Part shown: positions 60,422-64,000 of the stretch, piece by piece
How positions within the stretch are numbered: the stretch's first letter is position 1
Layout: each line of letters opens with the position of its first letter
Source of the DNA: an uncultured Paraprevotella sp.
GTDB lineage: Bacteria; Bacteroidota; Bacteroidia; Bacteroidales; Bacteroidaceae
Direction: 5' to 3'
Assembly (NCBI GenBank): GCA_944320765.1
Contig: CALUIS010000005.1
Coordinates: 62,001 to 126,000 of the forward strand
Length of the DNA: 64,000 bases
Program-made: the position numbers and the translations under genes
Notes under the pieces: model-generated
What the model saw: the letters and a program-made list of their open reading frames with translations, nothing else
Told to the model about the DNA's origin: nothing
The model's database searches: none

Positions 60422-60618
60422 ACCGGTGCGGGGTTTAGCTAATTTTATTGAAACGTCCATGTTCGGGACGGAGGCTTGAAACCAAAAACATGTTCTACAA
60501 CATATTTCCGATTTTAGTTTAAATTTTATTATGCGTTTTTACAGAAATGTCATACCTTTGAATAATCAAATGGGGTGCGGAATGCCCTGATTTTAAAAAA
60601 TGTTGAATAATTAACCTA
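60422..60618 (+). promoter_or_regulatory. Leader and probable promoter of the FAS1-susC locus
   Basis: AT-rich gap. TACCTTTG at 60553-60560 is a perfect -7 element; its upstream TTTG is not clear. The transcript would start near 60567 and carry the upstream ORF at 60619-60774 before the FAS1 gene. Confidence 0.55.
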
Positions 60619-60827
60619 ATGGAATGTGAAGCGTGTGATAATACCATGCACAAGTTCAGTACTTTGAGGAGGAGCGTGCAAGAGAGGTTGAAAAGGCAGC
60701 GGGTTGGTGCGGACGCGTTGTTAGTCAACTCTTTGCCGAGAGACGGGGACGGTATGCTGAAGAGTGGGATTTGATTTGAGATATATGAGAGAAAAAAGAA
60801 ATCTATTAAAATATTAACCTAATGGAA
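60610..60827 (+). repeat. 15-base direct repeats around two start codons
   Basis: ATTAACCTAATGGAA occurs at 60610-60624 and 60813-60827. The first copy sets the start of a 51-codon ORF. The second begins a three-codon mini-ORF (ATG GAA ATA TGA) whose stop overlaps the ATG of the FAS1 gene. Confidence 0.8.
60619..60774 (+). CDS. Upstream ORF (51 codons) in the leader of the FAS1 gene
   Basis: Starts MECEACDNTMHKFSTLRRSV and continues with QERLKRQRVGADALLVNSLP to the stop at 60774; strongly basic in the middle, with an amphipathic helix-like run. No family recognised. It has the same 15-base start context as the mini-ORF just before the downstream gene, and lies between a good -7 element and that gene. 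It may be translated as a leader peptide or small protein. Coding status is an inference. Confidence 0.45.
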   Translation: MECEACDNTMHKFSTLRRSVQERLKRQRVGADALLVNSLPRDGDGMLKSGI

Positions 60828-60829
60828 AT

Positions 60830-63646
60830 ATGAAAGGCAGTAACATTAAAAGTAAAATGGGTCGTTTTACGTTTTCCGCATGTGCGCTGTTCTTGGCCAG
60901 CGGGATGTTCGTCGCCTGTGAGGACGAGTTGCTTACCGGCACGCCCTCTTGGTTGGGCAGCAGCATCTATGACGAGTTGGCGAAGCGTGGGAATTTCCAG
61001 ACGACATTGAGACTGATCAATGACCCGGAAGTGTCCACGTTGAACTCGGACGGCCAGACGGAATACCGCCGAATGTTGGGGCTGACGGGAAGCAAGACGC
61101 TTTTCGTGGCGAACGACGAGGCGTATGCCCGGTTCTTCGAGAACAACAGCTGGGGGGCGAGGAGTTATGACGATTTGACACAATCCCAGAAGCGCACGTT
61201 GTTCAAGTCTTCTATGGTTAACAGCGCTTATCTGATTGAGCTGATGTCCAGCCAAAGTAATAATTCGGAGGACCCGGAGGAAGGAAGCGTCATCCGGCGC
61301 AGCACGGAGCTTTCCCTGTTCGACAGCATCCCGCAGCTTCACGCGGAGGACATGCCGGACAACAAGTATTGGAAGTACTATCGTTCAAAGTATGCGGACG
61401 GAAGCAAGGCCGGAATGCTGGTGATGTGCGACAACACGGTGTCCCCGATGGTGCATTTCCTTTCGGAATACATGGCGAACAAGCAGATTACGGACGACGA
61501 CTTGTCTTTCCTGACCAACGGGGCGTGCAACAGCACGGCGGAGTCCTACATCAACGGACAGCGTCTGACGGAGCGTGACATCACGTGCCAGAACGGCTAT
61601 GTCCAGGTGGTGGAGAACGTGATGGACCCGTTGACGAACATGGCGGAGGTCATCCGCAATGACGAGGACCTCTCCATCTTCAACAGCTTCCTGGACCGTT
61701 TCTGCGTGCCGGTGTTCGATGAAGGTACGACGAACTCCTACAACCAATACAGTTCGGGCGAGGTGGATTCCGTTTTCGTCTGGCGTTATTTCAACGACGG
61801 ATTGGGCTATGCAGACGGTATTAATGGTGTCAATAACTCGTTTGTGTCATACCGGAACGAGAACCCGGAGGATTTGCTTCCTTACGATCCGGGATGGAAC
61901 CAGTATGTGAATGCCGCCGGAGGTATGTCTTCCTATCAGGGTGACATGGCTGTCATCATTGCTCCTACGAACGATGCTTTCAACAAGTATTTCCAGTCGG
62001 GCGGCGGTGCCACGTTGCTGGACCGTTACAAGGAAATTGACAGCATTCCCGACAACATCATCATCGACATGATGGACAACTTCATGAAATATTCGCTGGT
62101 GGCGACGGTGCCGAGCAAGTTCTCCACAGTGACCAATACCGCGCAGATGGACATGGGGCTCAAGAAGGAGAAGTTCGACGAGTGCATCATGGCCAACAAC
62201 GGTGTGGTATATAAGGCCAACGAGGTGTTCCCCGTGCCGGAGTACCAGTCGGTGTCTTTCCCCGCTTCGTTGGATGACAGCATCCGCATCATGCGCATGA
62301 TGATTGACGACGGGCAGTACGGGTTGAACTACAAGGCCTACCTGAACTCCATGGAGAGTGAGTACATCCTGATTCTTCCGAGCGATGCGGCATTGCGCAA
62401 CTATGTGGATCCGGTGGACTTCGGGAAGAACCGCAAGACGGTGGCCCGCTTCTATTATGACGACCGGACCACCTACACCGGTTGCCGCGTGCGCGCGAAC
62501 CTTTATGTAGGGCGGCAGGATGCCGATGGCAGCTGGGTGGCCGACCTGAGCCAGCCGATTTCATGGGACAGCTATGAATACGGCGAGACGGAGTATGTGC
62601 AGAACCGCTTGAAGGATGTGTTGGAAAACTCCATCTATGTGCGGGACCGTGCGCTGAGTTCGGTCAGCGGACAGAACGTGTGGGTTTCCAAGGGCGGATG
62701 CCCCATCATCCTGGAAGGTTCGGGCGAAGGTGTCAAGATCCGGACGGCTTACCGCAAGGAACTGGCCGGAGAGGGCAACTCCATACCGGACAGCTACGTC
62801 TTTGGCGTACGTGTCGAGGACGGTTATTACGATATGGGACCCAACCCGGGAGGAAACGGCGAGACCTACATTGTGGACAAGGAGCCGGTGATGCCGGCCA
62901 CGAAGTCCGTGACTACCGTATTGGCCGGACTGGGTGCGGAATATCAGGAATTCAGGAACTTGCTGACACACAGCACGCTGGTTTCCGAATTGTATGACTA
63001 CGGCGCACCGGACGAGGATACCGGAATCCGTGATGCCAAGACCGTGTCCAACGACACGACCATCAACATCATGGAGAACTTCAACTACACCATCTATGTG
63101 CCTCCTACAGCGGAGATTAACAAACTGTATGCCGCAGGCTTGCTGCCGGACTGGCGGGACATTGTCAGCCTCAATGCGCAGCTGGCTTCCGCTTCCGGGG
63201 CCGACCGGGAGAAACTGCAGGCACAGATTACGGCCAAGACCGACTCGATTGACAATTTCATCCGCTACCACGTCCAGAACAATGCCATCTACTTGAACCG
63301 TCCTTCCCAGACGGGCGGCACGTTCGAGACCTCTTACATGCCGACGAACCGGTTCTCCACGTTGGCTGTGGACTATACGGGGAACGGCATCAGCGTGACT
63401 TGCCGCGACGGCGTGGGTACTGCGATTAAGGATGCGGCGGGCGAGAATCTGGTACGCCACGTGACGGAGGGCAACCATTTTGCCCGTGAGTATCACTTCC
63501 GTGCACCGAATAACGCTGTGGTCGCTACCTTGGACGATGCCCGTGTGCTTTACAACTCGTCCACGGCGGTAATCCACCTGTTGGACAAGCCCTTGCTTTA
63601 TTCCCAGGACTTGTCGGACAAGTACAGCGAGCGGATAGGTAATTAA
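60830..63646 (+). CDS. Fasciclin (FAS1) domain surface lipoprotein
   Basis: 938 residues. Signal with lipobox (ASGMFVAC, Cys30) and an acidic EDE after the cysteine, the usual surface-export signal of Bacteroidetes lipoproteins. Several FAS1-like modules follow; the first has TLFVANDEAYARFFENNSWG, the last ends NSSTAVIHLLDKPLLYSQ, a typical FAS1 closing strand. It precedes a SusC-like receptor by 18 bases, so it is probably an accessory surface binding protein of that uptake system. The ATG at 60830 overlaps the stop of a mini-ORF; ATG 60857 is an alternative. Confidence 0.85.
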   Translation: MKGSNIKSKMGRFTFSACALFLASGMFVACEDELLTGTPSWLGSSIYDELAKRGNFQTTLRLINDPEVSTLNSDGQTEYRRMLGLTGSKTLFVANDEAYARFFENNSWGARSYDDLTQSQKRTLFKSSMVNSAYLIELMSSQSNNSEDPEEGSVIRRSTELSLFDSIPQLHAEDMPDNKYWKYYRSKYADGSKAGMLVMCDNTVSPMVHFLSEYMANKQITDDDLSFLTNGACNSTAESYINGQRLTERDITCQNGYVQVVENVMDPLTNMAEVIRNDEDLSIFNSFLDRFCVPVFDEGTTNSYNQYSSGEVDSVFVWRYFNDGLGYADGINGVNNSFVSYRNENPEDLLPYDPGWNQYVNAAGGMSSYQGDMAVIIAPTNDAFNKYFQSGGGATLLDRYKEIDSIPDNIIIDMMDNFMKYSLVATVPSKFSTVTNTAQMDMGLKKEKFDECIMANNGVVYKANEVFPVPEYQSVSFPASLDDSIRIMRMMIDDGQYGLNYKAYLNSMESEYILILPSDAALRNYVDPVDFGKNRKTVARFYYDDRTTYTGCRVRANLYVGRQDADGSWVADLSQPISWDSYEYGETEYVQNRLKDVLENSIYVRDRALSSVSGQNVWVSKGGCPIILEGSGEGVKIRTAYRKELAGEGNSIPDSYVFGVRVEDGYYDMGPNPGGNGETYIVDKEPVMPATKSVTTVLAGLGAEYQEFRNLLTHSTLVSELYDYGAPDEDTGIRDAKTVSNDTTINIMENFNYTIYVPPTAEINKLYAAGLLPDWRDIVSLNAQLASASGADREKLQAQITAKTDSIDNFIRYHVQNNAIYLNRPSQTGGTFETSYMPTNRFSTLAVDYTGNGISVTCRDGVGTAIKDAAGENLVRHVTEGNHFAREYHFRAPNNAVVATLDDARVLYNSSTAVIHLLDKPLLYSQDLSDKYSERIGN

Positions 63647-63664
63647 CCTTAAAGAGAACAGAAG

Positions 63665-64000
63665 ATGAAAAATTTGAAATATTATATATTGGTATGCTGC
63701 CTGGCACTTGCTTCGGCAGTGAGTGCGCAGGGGATTTCGAGCGTGAGCGGTACGGTGTCCGATACGTTCGGCCCTGTCGTGGGAGCGGCTGTCGTCGAGG
63801 TGGACGAGTCGAACCGTAACATTTCGGCCACGGTGACCGACTTCAACGGTAACTTTACGTTGAAAATCAAGAATCCCAAGAACAAGCTGAAGTTCAGCTA
63901 TGTGGGCTTGAAGCCTCAAGTGCTTCCTATTAATAAGAGAGTGTACAATATCATGCTGGAAGACGCAATGGTGCTGAAGACGGTGGAGGTCAAGGCCAAG
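63665..64000 (+). CDS. SusC/RagA-type TonB-dependent receptor (3' end outside window)
   Basis: The first 112 codons are visible: a signal peptide (to about ASAVSAQ), a carboxypeptidase-regulatory-like beta-sandwich (SSVSGTVSDTFGPVVGAAVV ... ATVTDFNGNFTLKI), and LEDAMVLKTVEVKAK, where the TonB-box region begins. Outer membrane importer that works with a surface lipoprotein; a SusD-like gene is expected downstream. The substrate is unknown. Confidence 0.9.
   Translation, partial: MKNLKYYILVCCLALASAVSAQGISSVSGTVSDTFGPVVGAAVVEVDESNRNISATVTDFNGNFTLKIKNPKNKLKFSYVGLKPQVLPINKRVYNIMLEDAMVLKTVEVKAK

Follow-up and report, generated by a model that had tools for sequence, protein, structure and literature searches.

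A leader of about 265 nt, carrying two start-region elements and a short open reading frame (ORF), precedes the FAS1-susC-susD operon of an uncultured Paraprevotella sp., and it makes a believable candidate for a translational control region, given the strongly conserved second ribosome-start element and the short ORF kept in every species with this leader, all from one genus of gut-type Bacteroidales. A translated, cis-acting leader ORF is the best reading of the stretch, held tentatively and at a little short of an even chance. The anatomy of the locus, the conservation of the first element, its constant spacing, the persistence of the ORF with the constraint on its frame, and the confinement of the arrangement to a single clade are directly established and form the basis of this reading; translation of the ORF, its effect on FAS1 and the duplication behind the leader are inferred.

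The genes, ORFs, promoter and start-region elements described for the window lie on the plus strand of the window, the whole 64,000-nt stretch of DNA that was analysed. The promoter is marked by TACCTTTG (60553-60560), a Bacteroidetes -7 element (TAnnTTTG; consensus from PMC7366714), from whose position transcription would be expected to start near 60567, thus giving a leader of ~265 nt up to FAS1; the median 5' UTR of B. thetaiotaomicron is 32 nt (PMC7366714). Box 1, AAAAATGTTGAATAATTAACCTAA (60596-60619), lies near the 5' end of the leader, with 58 nt from TAnnTTTG to its TTAACC, and starts a leader ORF of 51 codons, MECEACDNTMHKFSTLRRSVQERLKRQRVGADALLVNSLPRDGDGMLKSGI (60619-60774), which contains a second in-frame ATG at 60646-60648. 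Box 2, ATTAACCTAATGGAA (60813-60827), is the start region of FAS1 (60830-63646), the first gene of the operon, which encodes a FAS1-domain lipoprotein of 938 aa with a lipoprotein-like start and a Pfam Fasciclin match (E 3.4e-9). It is followed by susC (63665-64000, running past the window end; profile match to TIGR04056, E 2.7e-209), whose ATG at 63665 is itself preceded by a TTAACCT element found in the genome motif search (63643-63668), and then by a SusD-like gene.

The two starts share an identical 15-base context, as the preliminary description had noticed: ATTAACCTAATGGAA occurs in exact copies at 60610-60624 and 60813-60827, and a search of the window that allowed 2 mismatches gave no others (expected 0.02). 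Copy 1 leads into the 51-codon ORF and copy 2 into ATG GAA ATA TGA, a three-codon ORF (MEI, 60822-60833) whose TGA (60831-60833) overlaps the FAS1 ATG (60830-60832) to form ATGA; both ORFs had been described in just this form, and both are present. The register differs between the copies, the FAS1 ATG standing 16 nt from its TTAACC and that of the 51-codon ORF 8 nt. Across the 2.9-Mb genome ATTAACCTAA has 5 sites, 2 of them in the FAS1 leader, a doubling that exceeds chance. TTAACCT followed by ATGA within 4-25 nt gives 20 genome matches, as against 8 for the reversed control pattern, and most of the 20 stand 5' of real genes, many with signal peptides and this operon's susC among them; TTAACCT 16-29 nt 5' of a start codon is a frequent element of this genome. 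Since it is such a common start-region element, the TTAACCT core is not peculiar to the FAS1 locus, and the unusual feature is the second copy of the box inside the ~265-nt leader. A different multi-copy short element, AAATCTAATACYATGAAAAACAC, was seen with tiny ORFs (about 7 to 34 codons) at three genome sites (L116, L117, L118).

The distribution of the long leader was followed within a genus set of 18 genomes, each with a FAS1-type relative. It is present in all ten congeners with readable DNA upstream of the FAS1 ortholog, namely the window's own genome (G000), G012, G014, G007, G001, G005, G004, G017, G009 and G006; in G015 the contig ends at the FAS1 start and the leader is unreadable. 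The ten genes together with that of G015 form a single clade (support 100/99). In the nearest outgroups, G016 and G011, TAnnTTTG stands 69-75 nt before the start and a second box is absent, and the outgroup G010 also seems to have a short leader, behind an imperfect promoter element; among short-leader relatives and other paralogs with a recognisable promoter, the promoter-to-ATG distance is 69-87 nt. FAS1-type paralogs are multiple in many genomes of the genus, one of which gave as many as seven matches (L081-L110). Among the paralogs whose upstream DNA was read, the long leader occurs only at the ortholog of the window gene, and the two-box leader was not found in the upstream DNA inspected for FAS1 homologs in Prevotella-type genomes. 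Contig breaks at the FAS1 start were seen in two relatives (G007:C14 start, G007:C22 end, G015:C73 end), the G007 contig ends C14 and C22 having 77 bases in common; a DNA inversion or second copy behind the G007 break was considered, and no further copy was found.

All ten leaders place their first TTAACC 57-59 nt from TAnnTTTG, though the intervening bases vary. Over the ten species, mean pairwise identity reaches 0.89 at the -7 element and falls to 0.48 between it and box 1; box 1 itself stands at 0.89 and box 2 (segment TTAACCTAAT) at 0.91, with 0.38 in the ORF body. Because its identity is close to that of box 2 while the DNA between the boxes has drifted, box 1 must be under selection, despite FAS1 starting from box 2.

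In 10/10 leaders an ATG-initiated ORF opens no more than 45 nt past box 1 and closes ahead of FAS1, with lengths of 51, 59, 59, 50, 46, 44, 35, 33, 18 and 58 codons, the 18-codon case being G004. These ORFs are longer than those in dinucleotide shuffles of each leader (Fisher P 1.4e-5 over the combined leaders once that of the window and near-duplicates were removed; 0.81 for the antisense control), in tests that treat related leader sequences as independent, which is only roughly true. Conservation of the ORF in relatives had been named as a check on the preliminary description, and its outcome supports a leader ORF: four relatives (G012, G014, G007, G005) share the frame and ATG of the window's ORF and can be aligned with it over 40 codons without a gap. 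Across these five most similar ORFs M1, H11, Q27, L35, S38 and P40 are invariant, and neutral simulation along their tree, in which the window's frame was required to be open, gave P 0.006 for the lack of a stop in the other four, P 0.0023 for protein score and P 0.009 for identity. Pairwise dN/dS is 0.1-0.7 in frame and 0.5-2.0, mostly near or above 0.8, in the other two frames, single pairs taken alone being mostly not significant. Altogether, the frame shows signs of purifying selection in the five most similar ORFs; the coding signal is moderate overall and weak across the other species, where one ORF is truncated.

The remaining five species (G001, G004, G017, G009, G006) start the leader ORF at a different ATG, 29-33 nt from the box and near the position of the window's second in-frame ATG. 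A profile of the five similar ORFs does not match the leaders of the other species, and searched against the whole genus it finds the leader peptide at the FAS1 locus only, other matches being due to chance; a tail resembling 'I/L-V-N/H/S-x-P' is visible by eye in some of these other ORFs. The ATG at +8 from box 1 lacks A at -3 and has A at -6, -12 and -13; in Flavobacterium, A at the latter three positions aids initiation and the lack of A at -3 makes a weaker start (PMC6847099), and the strength of the leader ORF start is uncertain for this reason. An ATG followed directly by a stop (ATGTGA or ATGTAA) lies out of frame within the leader ORF in G000 (ATGTGA, 60624-60629), G012, G014 and G007, and GTGTAA occupies the matching position in G017, G009 and G004.

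In the favoured arrangement, ribosomes would most likely enter at box 1, translate the short ORF that follows and terminate 8-130 nt short of FAS1, and this translation would set the output of FAS1 and the downstream SusCD genes in cis by occupying or clearing the leader. The peptide sequence would be of little weight, except for the weakly kept tail in some species. Several observations speak against this account: the start lies 8 nt from the box without A at -3, five relatives use a different ATG, the G004 ORF has 18 codons, the coding signal is moderate, and the five-ORF profile misses the other leaders. A bolder and improbable variant gives the tail (leucine/isoleucine-valine, asparagine/histidine/serine, then proline) the role of slowing the ribosome on a cellular signal and thereby gating the FAS1-SusCD operon, with the ORF derived from duplication of the start region. 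The RAGP of SecM is the arrest-peptide comparison for such a tail, and this variant was considered against the alignment of the five ORFs only.

The nearest rival, unlikely on balance though well ahead of any other, dispenses with translation and takes box 1 as a 5'-end element bound by a small RNA or an RNA-binding protein which recognizes box 2 as well, the ORF being a decaying relic. It is favoured by the strong conservation of box 1 while the ORF body drifts, by the shift of the start codon between species and the short ORF of G004, and by the precedent of FopS sRNAs, which bind near susC start codons, and of RbpB, which prefers AU-rich start regions in Bacteroides (PMC11697453). The ORF, however, keeps its length and frame beyond chance, and an Rfam scan of the 57-64 kb stretch returned no match, FopS-like or other; nor is there an obvious seed RNA, since ATTAACCTAA or complementary sites number only 5 genome-wide, most of them 5' of genes. 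A structured riboswitch, or an attenuator switching between hairpins, has in its favour the length of the leader and the repeated box, which could in principle alternate in pairing with one complementary segment, but the leader folds with a z-score of only -0.64 in single-sequence folding, alignment folding gives a weak consensus structure with few compensatory pairs, no conserved anti-box able to pair with either box was found in the leaders, and the Rfam scan was empty, so that this is the least credible of the alternatives weighed.

The two remaining alternatives concern the ORFs themselves. That the frame is under purifying selection in five species would suit an independent small protein working in trans, and the preliminary description had offered a new small basic protein; this is improbable, for the peptide drifts fast, ranges from 18 to 59 codons, occurs only at the FAS1 locus and matches no family in Pfam or NCBIfam (only a chance-level E of 0.09). 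The basic character fares no better, the proposal being weakened by the fast drift, the 18-codon ortholog and a charge that is not conserved, pI running from 6.5 to 9.6 among the four peptides tested. Termination-reinitiation, in which the three-codon MEI ORF would pass ribosomes to FAS1 through ATGA, could point to the exact overlap, which the window shares with six relatives, but the frame is shifted in G007 and G005, the ATG is missing in G006, and an ATG at +8 is missing in most other genes with the TTAACCT element; it is very unlikely, and as the overlap is present in only 7/10 leaders it is neither essential nor the core of the mechanism. Of the earlier proposal of leader-peptide or re-initiation control, the leader ORF has thus held up in all ten leaders, while the overlap meant to carry re-initiation is absent in G007, G005 and G006.

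The closest resemblance to the FAS1 leader is offered by the long 5' UTRs of B. thetaiotaomicron that hold short ORFs likened to leader peptides, single-genome observations awaiting validation (PMC7366714); the FAS1 leader, likewise long and with a short ORF, differs in having been traced in ten species, where its spacing is conserved and the frame was put to a test. The surface-protein gene roc of B. thetaiotaomicron is controlled through a 54-nt mRNA leader (PMC10294740), and the FAS1 operon would resemble it as a colonization- or uptake-type gene with post-initiation control via the leader, which here spans ~265 nt, unlike that of roc, and contains an ORF along with two start-region elements. 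The proposed mode of control recalls FopS and RbpB (PMC11697453) in acting where the first gene of a susC operon starts; these two act in trans, whereas neither a FopS match nor a seed was found at the FAS1 locus. In tetQ of Bacteroides, translation of the downstream gene depends on an mRNA-leader attenuator (Wang et al. 2005, reviewed in PMC5418344); tetQ is grouped with alternative-structure attenuators and responds to tetracycline, while the FAS1 leader is without conserved structure. Compared with ribosome-mediated leader-peptide attenuators, the FAS1 leader has the short ORF (18-59 codons, 10/10) but not the alternative structures masking or freeing a downstream start or a terminator, none being found by folding, alignment or anti-box search, and compared with ATGA termination-reinitiation pairs the overlap is not conserved throughout. 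Nothing beyond the cases in PMC7366714, PMC10294740, PMC11697453 and PMC5418344 was found in the literature on leader ORFs before susC operons. Control of SusC-type uptake after transcription start is known from few Bacteroides cases, and a leader of ten species in which box and spacing are frozen and the peptide drifts offers a comparative system for asking whether leader translation is itself the signal.

The long leader probably arose once, through duplication of ~200 nt that included the start region of FAS1. Measured from the promoter, a start at box 1 would fall at 58 + 16 = 74 nt, within the 69-87 nt at which FAS1 starts in relatives with a short leader; the boxes enclose ~200 nt, and the copies match over ~21 nt in G007. 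The DNA after box 1 weakly resembles the first codons of FAS1 in G017 (P 0.012), G009 (P 0.08) and G006 (P 0.015). Against a duplication stands the weak likeness of the copies beyond the box, which is not significant in the other species, and the leader peptide is not detectable as a copy of the FAS1 N terminus by protein profile. Tandem duplication of this start region would fit, as would a target-duplicating insertion, and either would suggest how a leader ORF can be born, from a copied start region of the downstream gene.

Upstream of the promoter, the palindrome ACATGTTCTACAACATATT (60488-60506), a candidate transcription-factor site, is one of two exact ACATGTTNNNNAACATRTW matches genome-wide; the other (G000:C7:90009-90027, L112) lies 5' of a secreted-protein gene. 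At both genes ACATGTT-N4-AACAT stands about 56-66 nt 5' of TAnnTTTG, so placed that it is possible for the two to be bound by one shared regulator, and a resembling site is visible in the alignments of relatives, G016 included.
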